Positions 54,979-63,288 of a DNA stretch of 64,000 nt are shown here, piece after piece. The notes under the pieces are model-generated. The model was given only the letters and a program-made list of their open reading frames with translations. It was not told the DNA's origin and searched no databases. Both the position numbers and the translations under genes were made by a program. Source of the stretch: Leucobacter sp. cx-42 (lineage in GTDB: Bacteria; Actinomycetota; Actinomycetes; Actinomycetales; Microbacteriaceae); NCBI RefSeq assembly GCF_014529985.1, contig NZ_JACVMU010000006.1, positions 186,001 to 250,000 of the forward strand. The letters are read 5' to 3'. The first letter of the stretch is position 1. Each line of letters opens with the position of its first letter.

Positions 54979-55005
54979 CTGTATCGGTACGTAGACTGGT
55001 CAGTG

Positions 55006-55933: not shown

Positions 55934-58651
55934 ATGGCGAGGCTTAGTCTCAAAGCAATCGAGGAGCGCGTCGCTCCACTGGCTCAGCGAGAGACGTTTG
56001 ATCGTGAGTTTATTTTCGATCTGTTACTTGCATATGGTAAACCGCAGGGCAACGTAACACGATTGCGAAACGGGTCGCTGAATGTCGCTACAGACCCCCG
56101 GCTCGAGGTCGCACAGAAGAATGTTGTCTACTTCAAGGAGACCGTAGGCGACCCGCTTGAGGTCGCCGAGCAGCTTCGGAAGTCGCCGGCGGTGGTTCGC
56201 TTCAGCACGCGCTTCGTCATCGTCACCGACTACGTCGACATCGTTGCCCACGACATCAAGACGAACGAGACGATCGGGTTCCCGATCCGGGAGATCGACC
56301 AGCATTTCACCTTCTTCCTGCCGTGGGCTGGCATGGAGAAGGCGCAGTACGTCGCGGAGTCCCACGCCGACGTCAAAGCCGCCGAGCGCATGGGCAAGCT
56401 CTTCGACGAGCTATTGCAGGCCAACCCGGGGATCTTCGACGACGAGCGCGGCCGCCACTCGCTGAACATCTTCTTCACTCGACTGCTGTTCTGTTTCTTC
56501 GCCGAGGACACCGGCATCTTCACGGACAACCAGTTCACCAACGCGGTCGGTTCGCAGACCCATCCCGACGGCTCGGATCTGGCAGAGTTCTTGACTGATT
56601 TGTTCAAGGCGCTCGACACCGAGGATCCTGCCGACAAGCCGAAGCATCTCGCTGAGTTCCCCTACGTGAACGGCCGGCTGTTCACGGTCAAAGACGACCA
56701 GATCGTTCCTCGTTTTACAAAGCAGGCGCGGGAAGAGCTCATCGCCTCGGGCACGCTCATCTGGCGCGACATCAACCCCGACATCTTCGGTTCGATGTTC
56801 CAGGCAATCGTCACGCCCGGCAAACGCAGCGACCTGGGACAGCACTACACCTCGGTGCCGAACATCCTAAAGACGATCGAGCCTCTCTTCCTTGATGACC
56901 TGAAGACGGAGCTCAACGAGGCGCAGGACAGCGAGCGGCGGCTCATCCGCCTGCTGGACCGCATCGCGGCGATCAAGGTGTTCGACCCCGCCTGTGGTTC
57001 GGGCAACTTCCTCGTCATCGCGTACAAGGAGCTTCGCAAGCTCGAACACGCGATCATCGAGCGGCTCGCTGAGCTGAGCTCCTCTCACCAGGTGCTGTGG
57101 GCGGACTCGAAAATCAGCATCGAGAACTTCTTTGGGATTGAAATCGACGACTTCGCGGTTGAGGTCGCTGTGTTGTCATTGTGGATCGCGAAGCATCAGA
57201 TGAACCGGGAATTCCGCGAGAAGTTCCGCGTCGAGATCCCGCTGATCCCGTTGAAAGAGACCGGGCAGATCAACGCAGGTAACGCCACTCGGGTGGACTG
57301 GAACTCGGTCTGCCCGAACGATGGCGAGACCGAGATCTACCTGATTGGTAACCCTCCATACGCCGGTGTCAAAGAACAGACGGCCGAGCAGAAAGCTGAT
57401 TTCGTCCCCGTATTTGGAGATCGTCCGTTCTCAAAGAAGCTGGACTACGTTGCTCTGTGGTTCATGAAAGCCGCGGACTATATGGAAGGAACGGCTTCCA
57501 AAGTCGCGTTTGTGAGCACTAAGTCCATCGCGCAGGGTGAACAGGTTGGCCTCATGTTCCCGGCGATCTTCGACAGAGGGATCGAGATCGGTTACGCCTA
57601 CACACCTTTCAAATGGGAGAACAACGCCAAGCGGAACGCAGGTGTCACGGTGATCGTTGTTTCCCTCCGAAACTTAGAGCCCTCGAAGAAGTTCCTCTTT
57701 CAAGGAGACCTTCGGATTGAAGTGTCAAACATCAATGGCTATCTCACAGAAGGTGGAAACGTCTTTGTGCTTCCGCGCTCAAAGCCGCTATCACAGTTAC
57801 CACCGATGACATTCGGCTCAAAGGGTACTGACTGGGGCAATCTGATGCTCGAGCCTGCTGAGCGGGAAAGTTTGCTTACGATGGCTCCGGATGCATCGGT
57901 TTTTGTTCGCAGAATCCTGGGAACGGACGAATTTGTTAAGGATCAAGAGAAGTATTGCATCTGGATCTCAGAAGAAGAGGCAGAGTACGCGGCTACCATT
58001 CCGCTATTGAAGCTCCGGTTTGATCGGAACCGAGATCAGCGGGCCGATAGCGTCAAGGCAGCGACGAAGGCCCTCGCAAAAGTGCCATATCGTTTTGGTG
58101 AGGTTCGCTACAAACCTACGGAGTCAATCCTCGTACCAAAGGTGTCGTCAATACGTCGCGACTATATTCCGGTCGGATATCTGGATGCCGACACGATCAT
58201 CAATGCATCGGCGTTCGGCGTGTACGACGCAGAACCCTGGGTGCTAGCTTTCTTGACTTCCCGGACCCACGTAGCCTGGACGGGCGCTGTAGGTGGGCGG
58301 ATGAGAGAGGACTATCAATACTCGAACACCATCGTCTACAACAACTTCCCAGTCCCGCCGTTGTCGGAGGCGACCAAAGAGAAGTTGACCGTCGCGGCGC
58401 TCCGCGTGCTCGACATTCGCGAGTACCACTGCGAGCAAACGCTGGCTGAGCTCTACGACCCGGATAAGATGCCGCAGGATCTGCGTGACGCTCACGCAGC
58501 GGTCGATGCGCTGGTCGACTCGATCTATTCGAAGAAGCCGTACGAGACGGATGAGCAGCGCCTGTCTGACTTGTTTGCCATGTACGAGCGTATGACTGCC
58601 GAAGAGGCTGCGAAGGCCCCGGCGAAGAAGACCCGAAGGACTGCAAAGTGA
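55934..58651 (+). CDS. MmeI-like class I DNA methyltransferase with degraded nuclease motif
   Basis: The 905-residue protein resembles type IIG/IIL (MmeI-like) restriction-modification enzymes in order: N-terminal nuclease-like region (about 1-160), helical spacer, adenine methyltransferase core, C-terminal recognition region. Motif X (LGQHYTS, 301-307), SAM-binding motif I (DPACGSGNF, 351-359), FFGIEIDDFA (399-408) and catalytic motif IV (NPPY, 473-476) are intact. In the nuclease-like region the place of D-x(9-11)-ExK reads D54 ... YFK (66-68), so the metal-binding Glu appears to be missing. It should methylate adenine in a specific sequence. Coupled to the helicase (GTGA). Confidence 0.88.
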   Translation: MARLSLKAIEERVAPLAQRETFDREFIFDLLLAYGKPQGNVTRLRNGSLNVATDPRLEVAQKNVVYFKETVGDPLEVAEQLRKSPAVVRFSTRFVIVTDYVDIVAHDIKTNETIGFPIREIDQHFTFFLPWAGMEKAQYVAESHADVKAAERMGKLFDELLQANPGIFDDERGRHSLNIFFTRLLFCFFAEDTGIFTDNQFTNAVGSQTHPDGSDLAEFLTDLFKALDTEDPADKPKHLAEFPYVNGRLFTVKDDQIVPRFTKQAREELIASGTLIWRDINPDIFGSMFQAIVTPGKRSDLGQHYTSVPNILKTIEPLFLDDLKTELNEAQDSERRLIRLLDRIAAIKVFDPACGSGNFLVIAYKELRKLEHAIIERLAELSSSHQVLWADSKISIENFFGIEIDDFAVEVAVLSLWIAKHQMNREFREKFRVEIPLIPLKETGQINAGNATRVDWNSVCPNDGETEIYLIGNPPYAGVKEQTAEQKADFVPVFGDRPFSKKLDYVALWFMKAADYMEGTASKVAFVSTKSIAQGEQVGLMFPAIFDRGIEIGYAYTPFKWENNAKRNAGVTVIVVSLRNLEPSKKFLFQGDLRIEVSNINGYLTEGGNVFVLPRSKPLSQLPPMTFGSKGTDWGNLMLEPAERESLLTMAPDASVFVRRILGTDEFVKDQEKYCIWISEEEAEYAATIPLLKLRFDRNRDQRADSVKAATKALAKVPYRFGEVRYKPTESILVPKVSSIRRDYIPVGYLDADTIINASAFGVYDAEPWVLAFLTSRTHVAWTGAVGGRMREDYQYSNTIVYNNFPVPPLSEATKEKLTVAALRVLDIREYHCEQTLAELYDPDKMPQDLRDAHAAVDALVDSIYSKKPYETDEQRLSDLFAMYERMTAEEAAKAPAKKTRRTAK

Positions 58652-60633
58652 ACGCGATCCCCAAACCGGTGAACATTGTCGATGTCACGTACGCACAGAC
58701 GAAGGCCTCGGTGAACACCGACGCGCTGGGCATGCGCGAGATGCAGCAGCGCGTCTTCGAGCAACGCGACGCGCAGCATCTGCTGGTGAAGGCCCCGCCG
58801 GCGTCGGGCAAGTCCCGCGCGCTGATGTTTGTGGCGCTGGATAAGCTCTATAACCAGGGACGCAAGAAGGTCATCGTGGCCGTCCCCGAGCGATCCATCG
58901 GTGCCTCGTTCTCGTCAACGAGCCTGACGAAGTACGGCTTCTGGGCGGACTGGGAGATCAAGAACGAGCACAACCTCTGCGACGCAGGATCGTCGGCGGG
59001 CAAGGTCGATGCGTTCGTCAAGTTCCTTGACGGGCCAGACGCGGTGCTGGTGTGCACGCACGCGACACTGCGGTTCGCGTTCGAGAAGCTGGCCCCGGCG
59101 GCATTCAATGGCACGGTGCTGGCGATCGACGAGTTCCACCACGTTTCGGCAGACACGGAAACCTCACGGCTGGGTGCTCTTCTGCGTGACGTGATGAACG
59201 GCTCGGACGTACACATCGTGGCCATGACAGGGTCATACTTCCGCGGCGACTCGGTGCCGGTGCTCTCCCCCGAGGACGAGGCGAAGTTCACGCCGGTGAC
59301 GTTCAACTACTACGACCAGCTCAACGGTTACGAGCACCTGCGATCGTTGGGCATCGGGCATCACTTTTACCAGGGGCGCTACACCGATGCGATCCACGAA
59401 GTGCTCGACCTCGACAAGAAGACGATCGTGCACATCCCGAGCGTGAACTCTGGTGAGTCCACGAAGGACAAGATCGAAGAAGTCGGCCGGATCATTGACG
59501 CGATCGGCAACGTTGAGTCGACCGATCCCGATACCGGCATCATCAGTGTGCGCCGCGAAGACACTGGCGAGATCCTCCGGGTCGCAGATCTTGTCGATGA
59601 CACCGATCAGAAGAAACGTGGCGACACGTTGCACTACCTATCGCACACCGCATCGAAGGAGCGCGACGGCGTCGACATCATCATCGCGCTCGGCATGGCG
59701 AAAGAAGGCTTCGACTGGCCCTTCGCTGAGCACGCCCTGACGGTTGGCTACCGGGCGTCGCTGACCGAGGTGATCCAGATCATTGGGCGCGTCACGCGTG
59801 ACAGCGAGGGCAAGTCACACGCGCAGTTCACGAACCTGATCGCCGAGCCGGACGCCTCGCAGGGCGAGGTCAAGATGTCGGTGAACAACATGCTGAAGGC
59901 GATCACGGCGTCGCTGCTCATGGAGCAGGTGCTTGCGCCGAACTTCAACTTCAAGACGAAGAAGTTCGATGACGACGAGCCAGCGAAGAAAGGCGAGCTG
60001 AAAATCAAGGGCTTCAAGGAGCCCTCCAGCGACCGCGTGAAGCAGATCGTCGCGACGGACCTGAACGACTTGAAGGCGACGATCCTGCAGGACGACACTT
60101 TCGCGCGCGCCGCCGCGGGCTCGGTCGATGCCGAGACGACCAACAAGGTGCTGATCCCGAAGATCATCCGAGAGAAGTACCCCGACCTCACCGAGCAGCA
60201 GGTCGAAGAGGTGCGCCAGCAGGTCGTCGTGGACTCGGTGATCAAGAACGGCGAGGTACGCGAGGTTGGCGACAAACGGTTCATCAAGATGGCCGAGAAG
60301 TTCGTCAACATCGATGAGCTGAACATCAACCTCATCGACTCGGTGAACCCGTTCCAGCGCGCGTTCGAGGTGCTGTCGAAGTCGGTCACCCCATCGGTAC
60401 TGCGCCTGATTCAGGACACGATCACTTCGACGAAGATCGAATTCTCCGAAGAAGAGGCGCTGGCGCTGTTCCCGAAGATCAAGACATGGAAGCAAGTCCA
60501 CGGCAAGAATCCCGACATTCGGTCCGAGGATCCCGAAGAGAAGCGGTTGGCCACGGCGCTGCTGTTCCTGCAGAAGCTCGCGACGAAACGCAAGGCCGAG
60601 AAGGCCGCGACGGAGATGGGAGAAACGTCATGA
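58648..60633 (+). CDS. Superfamily 2 DEAD/DEAH-like helicase of the methyltransferase cassette
   Basis: The 661-residue protein has Walker A APPASGKS (49-56), motif II DEFH (162-165), motif III TGS (195-197), motif V-like GMAKEGFDWP (350-359) and motif VI QIIGRVTRD (378-386). The C-terminal 270 residues are helical and of unknown fold. Helicases of this type move on double-stranded DNA in type I, type III and BREX- or DISARM-like systems. The GTG start overlaps the methyltransferase stop; its own stop overlaps the nuclease start (ATGA), so all three proteins are probably made together. Confidence 0.88.
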   Translation: MNAIPKPVNIVDVTYAQTKASVNTDALGMREMQQRVFEQRDAQHLLVKAPPASGKSRALMFVALDKLYNQGRKKVIVAVPERSIGASFSSTSLTKYGFWADWEIKNEHNLCDAGSSAGKVDAFVKFLDGPDAVLVCTHATLRFAFEKLAPAAFNGTVLAIDEFHHVSADTETSRLGALLRDVMNGSDVHIVAMTGSYFRGDSVPVLSPEDEAKFTPVTFNYYDQLNGYEHLRSLGIGHHFYQGRYTDAIHEVLDLDKKTIVHIPSVNSGESTKDKIEEVGRIIDAIGNVESTDPDTGIISVRREDTGEILRVADLVDDTDQKKRGDTLHYLSHTASKERDGVDIIIALGMAKEGFDWPFAEHALTVGYRASLTEVIQIIGRVTRDSEGKSHAQFTNLIAEPDASQGEVKMSVNNMLKAITASLLMEQVLAPNFNFKTKKFDDDEPAKKGELKIKGFKEPSSDRVKQIVATDLNDLKATILQDDTFARAAAGSVDAETTNKVLIPKIIREKYPDLTEQQVEEVRQQVVVDSVIKNGEVREVGDKRFIKMAEKFVNIDELNINLIDSVNPFQRAFEVLSKSVTPSVLRLIQDTITSTKIEFSEEEALALFPKIKTWKQVHGKNPDIRSEDPEEKRLATALLFLQKLATKRKAEKAATEMGETS

Positions 60634-61835
60634 CTCCAGTCGACTTCACGTCCAACGAGGACCTAGTCATCACTCTTGACGACATCCTCGACGACGAGCT
60701 TCTGAACGCGCCTGAGAAGCCGAAGAAGATTACCTCGTCTGATCGTCTCGAGCGTGCATTCCTCGAGATCTTAGAGTTCAGACAGTCCGAGGGGCGGTTG
60801 CCCAGTTCGCAGACCCGTGAGATTGCTGAACGCAAGCTTGGAGCGCGTTTGGACGGTTTCCTAGCGAGTGAGGCACGGACCGAAGCCGTGAAGCACCTCG
60901 ATGATTTGGGATTGCTCGAAGTTCCGGCAGCGCCGGCCTCCATCGACGATTTGCTGGCGAGCAACGACCTTGACGATCTACTTGACGATAGCGCGGGCAT
61001 CCTCGACGTTTCGGATCTCCCTATTCGCCGTTCGGCCGATGCTCCGGATTCAATAGCACGGCGTAAAAGAGCGCAAGACTTCGAAAACTTCGCTCACCTC
61101 TTTGCCCAAAAGCATGCTGAACTTCGCGAAGGAACGCTTCTTCGCGCGCCGTTTAGGGGTGTCCAAACAATCGAAGAGGGTCGTTTCTTCGTTCTGAATG
61201 GAATGCTTTTGTTCATCGCGGAAGTTGGCGAATCGAAGACCATGGTTGTCGGAGGAAAGCCAGAGCGGAGGCAGAGACTTCGAGTGATTTTTGAAAACGG
61301 CACTGAATCTTCTCTATATCGCCAGTCGTTATCGATTCGCCTCCATGAACAAGCTGGCGAGGCCATCGTACGTAGCGAGACTTCATTAAATGAAATTCTC
61401 GACGGCGATACGGAAACGGGCCATATCTACGTGCTTCAATCTCTGAGCACGGACACCCTGATTGCGAATATAGAGCACCTGCACAAAATTGGGTTCTCGA
61501 CGACAAGCGTCGAGAAACGTGTGCAGGGTGCGTCTACCTCGCCGACTTATCTGATGGCCCCTGTCGAGATCGTCGCCGACTACCGGGTGTATAACGTCAA
61601 GGCATCTGCACTGGAAAATTTGCTGCACCGAGTGTTTGCAGATGTTCGTTTGAACCTCACTCAAGTGGACAGCCAAGGTCGCAACTATGACCCATCGGAG
61701 TGGTTCGTTGTGCCTCTTGAGGTGATTGATCAGGCGGTCTCTATGATCATGTCAGGTGAGATCATCAAGTATGAATATGACAAGGTTCTGCAGCGACTAG
61801 CGCTGCGTCCTGCCACAGGGAAACCTCGGAAGTAG
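60630..61835 (+). CDS. GIY-YIG (T5orf172-type) nuclease of the methyltransferase cassette
   Basis: The 401-residue protein has an acidic, helical N-terminal half (residues 1-160), a middle beta-rich part and a C-terminal GIY-YIG domain of the T5orf172 type (about 262-372). Active-site elements: GHIYVL (264-269), HKIGFS (285-290, the YIG position), Arg297 in VEKRVQGA and metal-binding Glu329 in SALENLLHRVF. GIY-YIG domains cut DNA. As the methyltransferase seems to have lost its own nuclease, this protein may supply cleavage. Start fixed by ATGA overlap with the helicase. Confidence 0.82.
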   Translation: MTPVDFTSNEDLVITLDDILDDELLNAPEKPKKITSSDRLERAFLEILEFRQSEGRLPSSQTREIAERKLGARLDGFLASEARTEAVKHLDDLGLLEVPAAPASIDDLLASNDLDDLLDDSAGILDVSDLPIRRSADAPDSIARRKRAQDFENFAHLFAQKHAELREGTLLRAPFRGVQTIEEGRFFVLNGMLLFIAEVGESKTMVVGGKPERRQRLRVIFENGTESSLYRQSLSIRLHEQAGEAIVRSETSLNEILDGDTETGHIYVLQSLSTDTLIANIEHLHKIGFSTTSVEKRVQGASTSPTYLMAPVEIVADYRVYNVKASALENLLHRVFADVRLNLTQVDSQGRNYDPSEWFVVPLEVIDQAVSMIMSGEIIKYEYDKVLQRLALRPATGKPRK

Positions 61836-62235: not shown

Positions 62236-63288
62236 TCAGGGAAGCCAAATACTCAATGGAGCTGGGTCACCGGTCAATCGCGTCCAATAAGCGTGACCGA
62301 GCGCTAGCCCCACAGACGTTAATGTCATCCGGTTAATTCCGTTTCGTTCGTCCTCCCAAATATTACGAAGAGGCGCCAAAGCTGGCACGTGTTCCACTAC
62401 CTCATCAGCGATCTCGCTCTCGGTCATCTGTCCGAGAGCGAGGATTCGTTTTAGATCTTGAATTTGTATACTCAGTCCAAGCTCCGCGGCGATTTTTTCT
62501 AGGCCTTGGTCAGTGAGAAGCACCAATTGAGTTCGAGCATGATCGCGCATGGCTGGCGTCACAAGGTCGCGAGATTTCAGCTCGCTAAGAAACTCCGGCT
62601 CAATTTCAGACTCAGAGAATCCTCTTGTATAGAGGCCTTCATTTCCAGAACTAATTGCCTTTCCAAAGCTCTTCGATGAGATACTGAGCGTGCCCGCTCC
62701 GACATATTCAATATGCTGGTAGTCAGCATGACCGGGCGGAATATCTACACCGATATCTGAGACGTTTCGTCTAAGTATTGAGTAAAGACTCTCCGCAGTC
62801 TTAACGTCGAGTAGCCGTACGTATCTAAGATAAAAAACCCATGCAATGGCGCGCCTCTGTTGTTCAGTTAGCTTCGAGGCAGATGAAATCGCCTCGTTTA
62901 GAGCCAGAGTGCGCAAGTTTCGCTGATCCTCGTTTACTCGCGAGGCAAGAAGATCTACGAGTGCCGTCCGAAGGTCTGCTTCCCCCGACCGTGCAAACTC
63001 TTTTTGCGCTTCAAATACAACGGTTTGAACGTCAGGATCCGCCAGCTGGTGTACTCGCTCAGGATTCTCGGCTTCAAGTTTGGCAAGAAACTCAGAGGTG
63101 AGAGTTTCAGCTCTCTGCAAGGCCAGAGATTGCGCAACGCCTGCGAGCTCGATTGCATTACTCCGAAAAACATCAAGAGCAACTTCTCGAGCTTCATTGA
63201 CGGTCAGACCATGAAAATGCATGTCCTTCCCTGCTTGATAATTCGCTGAGCCTGGCCCTGCTTCTTGCTGCTGGCTACGCTTACTCAT
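62236..63288 (-). CDS. Hypothetical protein with N-terminal GSANYQAGKDM motif (LPO_1073/Vpar_1526-like)
   Basis: The 350-residue soluble protein begins with a polar segment and GSANYQAGKDMHFHG (residues 13-27). A helical region follows (VNEAREVALDVFRSNAIELAGVAQSLALQR) and then a mixed domain rich in charged residues. The layout recalls a family annotated as LPO_1073/Vpar_1526, of unknown function; I am only moderately sure of that. It overlaps the gene before it by 8 nt, and both share the NYQAG motif. Base composition is AT-richer than the core genes, so it was probably acquired. Confidence 0.75.
   Translation of the reverse strand: MSKRSQQQEAGPGSANYQAGKDMHFHGLTVNEAREVALDVFRSNAIELAGVAQSLALQRAETLTSEFLAKLEAENPERVHQLADPDVQTVVFEAQKEFARSGEADLRTALVDLLASRVNEDQRNLRTLALNEAISSASKLTEQQRRAIAWVFYLRYVRLLDVKTAESLYSILRRNVSDIGVDIPPGHADYQHIEYVGAGTLSISSKSFGKAISSGNEGLYTRGFSESEIEPEFLSELKSRDLVTPAMRDHARTQLVLLTDQGLEKIAAELGLSIQIQDLKRILALGQMTESEIADEVVEHVPALAPLRNIWEDERNGINRMTLTSVGLALGHAYWTRLTGDPAPLSIWLP

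Follow-up and report, generated by a model that had tools for sequence, protein, structure and literature searches.

Three consecutive genes on the forward strand of Leucobacter sp. cx-42 contig NZ_JACVMU010000006.1, at positions 55934-61835 of the 64,000-nucleotide stretch analysed here (the window), are an actinobacterial copy of the known dnmA(yeeA)-yeeB-yeeC cluster, to which they are likened by family content, gene order and the published descriptions. As a system, then, the cassette is not new. An initial annotation had presented the genes as a restriction-like system of undescribed layout; the claim of novelty fails because two papers already describe the same gene set in the same order (PMC7261158; PMC9973331), while the part of the claim holding that the set methylates self and cuts nonself remains the best reading. 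We consider it probable that the trio is a Type I-like restriction-modification (RM) system built on an MmeI-type methylase, which would mark its own DNA and attack unmarked invading DNA. The features of the cassette are as follows.

55934-61835, + strand: DnmA-YeeB-YeeC cassette of three genes (MmeI-type methylase, superfamily 2 (SF2) helicase, GIY-YIG protein)
55934..58651, + strand: gene 1, DnmA/YeeA-like MmeI-family N6-adenine DNA methyltransferase (MTase), 905 amino acids (aa); from Pfam, phmmer and motifs
57329..58303, + strand: divergent segment of gene 1 for specificity (last part of the MTase domain and target recognition domain (TRD), residues ~466-790), GC 53.0%
58648..60633, + strand: gene 2, YeeB-like SF2 helicase/translocase, 661 aa, with a helical C-terminal region; from Pfam, motifs and a predicted model
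60630..61835, + strand: gene 3, YeeC-like protein, 401 aa; from Pfam, invariant residues and a predicted model
60990..61394, + strand: divergent segment in the middle of gene 3 (residues ~121-255), GC 51.4%

The three genes and their active sites

Both gene junctions are 4-nt overlaps (GTGA + ATGA), and because of these overlaps translational coupling of the trio is suggested. The mechanical start of the gene 3 open reading frame is 60486; its natural start, at the ATGA overlap, is 60630 and gives the protein of 401 aa. Coordinates and Pfam matches agree with the initial annotation on three overlapping genes for a methylase, an SF2 helicase and a T5orf172-type GIY-YIG protein. The residues singled out there (NPPY, DEFH, Arg297 and Glu329) are likewise present, with NPP, DEFH, Arg297 and Glu329 (nearly) invariant, and the numbering of the last two fits a start at 60630.

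In gene 1, Pfam recognises the full set of five MmeI domains (N, hel, Mtase, TRD and C; MmeI_Mtase 3e-100, MmeI_TRD 8e-71), and the domain order is a degenerate nuclease-like N-terminal domain, a helical spacer, the MTase domain, the TRD and a C-terminal bundle. In phmmer it was matched to MmeI (PDB 5hr4) with E=1.6e-170 over residues 89-899, and in PADLOC it scored 942 bits with the type IIG/MmeI model. The MTase motifs are intact, with DPACGSGN at 351 and NPPY at 473, and NPP is (nearly) invariant among homologues. Cleavage by MmeI needs D70, E80 and K82 (PMC4833311). This N-terminal nuclease triad is lost in gene 1: the D and E-x-K positions are replaced in the alignment to another MmeI homologue of the host, and among 93 aligned methylases of the cluster the K of the triad is found in 0/93 and the E in 2/93. 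Since the nuclease motif of gene 1 is lost, any cutting has to be done by another part of the set, for which gene 3 is the simplest choice. The host homologue used in that alignment (L142:2272-5118, on contig C12 of genome G000) keeps D-x9-E-x-K intact and is apparently a canonical type IIL enzyme.

The helicase gave a Pfam match to DEAD, with Helicase_C just under the cut-off, and no match to a nuclease domain in Pfam. Its motifs, Walker A GKS at 54-56, DEFH at 161-164 and GRVTR at 380 (motif 377-385), are (nearly) invariant in 45 and 124 homologues. The predicted model, like that of gene 3 obtained from alignments built without rows from annotated plasmid records, resembles many SF2 helicases; HsdR of EcoR124I is among them at ranks 18-19, but its match does not surpass those to other SF2 proteins. 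Compared with the copy in Microbacterium nymphoidis, the helicase shows 95% protein identity at 87% DNA identity. The higher value for the protein suggests that gene 2 is under purifying selection.

Gene 3 consists of a helical N-terminal part, a variable beta-rich middle (~121-255) and a C-terminal T5orf172/MUG113 GIY-YIG domain with Y267, R297 and E329 (Pfam: MUG113 3e-14, T5orf172 4e-13). The (nearly) invariant residues of the GIY-YIG domain are G264, Y267, K286, G288, R297, E329 and H333. Genes 2 and 3 are matched weakly in PADLOC. The predicted structure of gene 3 has good local confidence (predicted local distance difference test 87; predicted template modelling score 0.47), and a Foldseek search with this model gave no match at E<=0.001. 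In VIA-align no Z score exceeded 6, and most of the matches were between the middle part and small beta-barrel folds (tudor, KOW and EF-P-like); they are weak and say nothing firm on function.

Conservation, spread and divergent segments

Helicase-seeded searches gave 41 loci from viral contigs and 80 from species genomes, to which genome and plasmid loci were added. In 107 loci the three genes share a strand, and the helicase alone was enough to retrieve almost every one of these loci. The three-gene order given in the initial annotation recurs elsewhere; in one of the 107 loci (L097) the methylase is placed after the nuclease gene. Together with the (nearly) invariant NPP, GKS, DEFH, R297 and E329, these same-strand loci put the gene set far beyond chance. 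In the loci without a methylase match the sequence upstream of the helicase is short, and for this reason their methylase gene may simply have been cut off.

The gap between methylase and helicase is <=300 nt in 74/107 loci, and other genes or spacers lie between them in 33/107. Ten inserted genes were scanned (L039, L043, L083, L087, L089, L093, L107, L118 and L136 are loci with such genes) and belonged to SLFN_AlbA_2 (5), RhuM, YhcG nuclease, AAA_13 and BRO-N, with one lacking a family. Similar cargo genes are found in Type I RM operons.

The trio occurs in Actinomycetota, Bacillota, Bacteroidota, Campylobacterota, Planctomycetota and one metagenome-assembled genome of a Methanosarcinaceae archaeon. 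A close helicase was found in 4/297 genomes of the order, and a full-length DnmA-like methylase in 2/36 other genomes of the genus, one of which has an internal stop codon; further helicase relatives were found among the 300 Bacilli genomes drawn. Plasmids gave 152 records with a relative spanning at least 80% of the helicase, and the plasmid copies are annotated in the order methyltransferase, helicase, GIY-YIG nuclease. Phage records gave fragments only. Because the occurrence is patchy and copies are present on plasmids, horizontal transfer of the cluster is pointed to. In the Pediococcus pentosaceus plasmid pP76 (L058, 7677 bp) the trio makes up the sole three annotated genes. In a Paenarthrobacter plasmid (L056:7082-8572) a fourth gene, with no family assigned, overlaps the end of the GIY-YIG gene; the window is without a gene at that place.

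The base composition of the window bears out the AT-rich island edges of the initial annotation. GC is 0.51-0.61 from position 55000 on, covering the cassette and its right flank, with the minimum at the two edges of this low-GC stretch, and 0.61-0.66 on the left side. As marks of island ends, flanking repeats were sought and none was convincing, and no tRNA gene was found within the 64-kb window. Downstream, the trio is adjoined in the AT-rich part of the island by a gene for an LPO_1073/Vpar_1526 family protein (62236-63288, - strand; NCBIfam 8.6e-68), a homologue of which was not found in the related loci.

Two segments of the cassette are much more divergent than their surroundings. Compared with the three nearest relatives (L059-L061), residues ~466-790 of the methylase have 61% DNA identity, while the rest of the gene on both sides of them has 83-89%. 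For the middle of gene 3 the value is 53-57% versus 70-80% on either side; the identity of the helicase gene is 86-87%. Within the methylase, divergence is greatest in the TRD, as would be expected under changing target specificity. The GIY-YIG middle is a discrete segment, richer in AT, and its sequences in actinobacterial relatives form separate classes. Co-variation of the TRD and the nuclease middle, as a sign of shared target recognition, was examined and rejected: the partial Mantel correlation was r = -0.02 in Actinomycetes and -0.01 over all loci, no better than permutations. Since this correlation is about zero and the sequence clusters of the two segments cross-cut, the TRD and the nuclease middle vary independently. 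It is conceivable, though we regard it as doubtful, that residues ~121-255 are an exchangeable recognition or sensor segment swapped independently of the TRD, with restriction needing a second signal besides the unmethylated motif. Such a requirement for two signals would fit both the published observation that phages do not avoid the motif and protection limited to some phage clades.

Proposed mechanism and rival explanations

The sequences establish the parts, the intact active-site motifs in the three proteins, the loss of the nuclease motif in the methylase and the conserved set and order of the genes. For a Type I-like RM system made of these parts, the following course of events may be proposed. 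The TRD of gene 1 would recognise a short asymmetric DNA site and the enzyme would place N6-methyladenine (6mA) on one strand as the mark of the host genome; the nuclease domain fused to it is dead. Where incoming DNA carries the site in unmodified form, the SF2 motor of gene 2 would be recruited or licensed by gene 1. This motor would use ATP to translocate on DNA and bring or activate gene 3, and the GIY-YIG subunit would then cut. Complex formation, translocation, cleavage and the activity of this copy are inferred.

The results from Bacillus subtilis weigh against this mechanism. Deletion of dnmA left transformation efficiency unchanged, deletion of yeeB or yeeC left phage sensitivity unchanged, and the cluster restricted neither a plasmid nor three phages. 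Phage genomes show no depletion of the DnmA motif, and in the view of the authors DnmA is an orphan methylase that stems from a dead RM relic (PMC7261158; PMC9973331). By extension, the Leucobacter methylase could be an orphan epigenetic regulator, with the helicase and the nuclease carried along without restricting, as proposed for B. subtilis, where some genes change in expression with m6A and restriction was not observed (PMC7261158; PMC9973331). We think this unlikely, although it is the strongest of the alternatives, because the helicase and nuclease motifs are intact in the present copy and (nearly) invariant in >100 homologues, and the identities of gene 2 suggest purifying selection. 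Another possibility is a BREX- or DISARM-like defence, in which methylation marks self and the helicase and GIY-YIG protein keep phages from replicating or entering, without cutting at or near the motif. The methylase does match the DrmMI and PglX models of PADLOC, but weakly: the PglX models gave 17-39 bits, far under their cut-offs, and the DrmMI match was partial, with 100 bits versus the 942 of the type IIG/MmeI model. Moreover, no PglZ, BrxC, DrmA/B/C or similar protein was recognised beside the trio when the neighbouring frames were read by eye, not scanned singly. Such a defence is therefore quite improbable. The strong full-length similarity to MmeI could also mean that gene 1 is a self-contained type IIL enzyme and genes 2-3 an unrelated neighbouring module. 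This explanation is rejected and keeps hardly any probability, since the nuclease triad is lost and the gene set is conserved, with all three genes in the 107 same-strand loci and 4-nt overlaps suggesting coupling.

The Type I-like RM system thus stays the favoured reading, and the present copy could help to decide on it. The DnmA-YeeB-YeeC set is widespread, yet searches of PADLOC and NCBIfam, the defence and family libraries used, turned up no model that stands for the three genes together. The two tested members disagree: the set of B. subtilis is inactive, whereas an effect on phage sensitivity is given for Vibrio crassostreae in the relevant passage of PMC9973331, according to which deleting dnmA or yeeB raised the sensitivity to some phage subclades (Piel et al., via PMC9973331). 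With all its catalytic motifs intact, the window copy is a good candidate to settle whether and how the set restricts DNA.

Comparison with known systems

The initial annotation had found no fit to Type I, type IIL, BREX or DISARM systems, and here, too, the defining features of each were not recognised. The domain layout and the long similarity of gene 1 are those of MmeI (type IIL, PDB 5hr4). However, MmeI cuts by its own N-terminal PD-(D/E)XK domain, while gene 1 has lost this active site and has a helicase and a nuclease as partners. With Type I RM systems (HsdM/S/R) the trio shares the split of labour among methylase with target recognition, SF2 motor and nuclease. It differs from them in that a single MmeI-type chain holds both the MTase and the TRD, the motor and the nuclease are separate, and the nuclease is of the GIY-YIG and not the PD-(D/E)XK type. 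No HsdS, and no HsdR with a fused PD-(D/E)XK domain, was seen in the open reading frames beside the trio.

Three features of the DnmA cluster are found in the cassette: an MmeI methylase with complete MTase and TRD, absence of the nuclease motif, and a helicase gene directly downstream, followed by a T5orf172/GIY-YIG gene, on the same strand. DnmA (YeeA) of B. subtilis is MmeI-like, makes 6mA at GACGAG and is without the MmeI endonuclease motif (PMC7261158; PMC9973331), and in a control search B. subtilis was found to hold a member of the MmeI_Mtase family over the cut-off. Its dnmA is followed by yeeB (SF2 helicase) and yeeC (T5orf172) (PMC7261158), and a passage of the same paper suggests a Type I-like system, citing Morgan et al. 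2009. The commonest neighbours of dnmA homologues are helicase and GIY-YIG/T5orf172 families at +1 and +2 (PMC9973331). The Leucobacter cassette resembles the B. subtilis cluster in its families and their order, in the methylase without nuclease motif, and in its location in a GC-poor, apparently acquired island. It differs in that the B. subtilis cluster was tested and found inactive, and the YeeB and YeeC of that cluster are reported to miss C-terminal stretches (PMC7261158; PMC9973331). Similarly, the homologues of V. crassostreae form the same three-gene set, as far as the description given of them in PMC9973331 goes.
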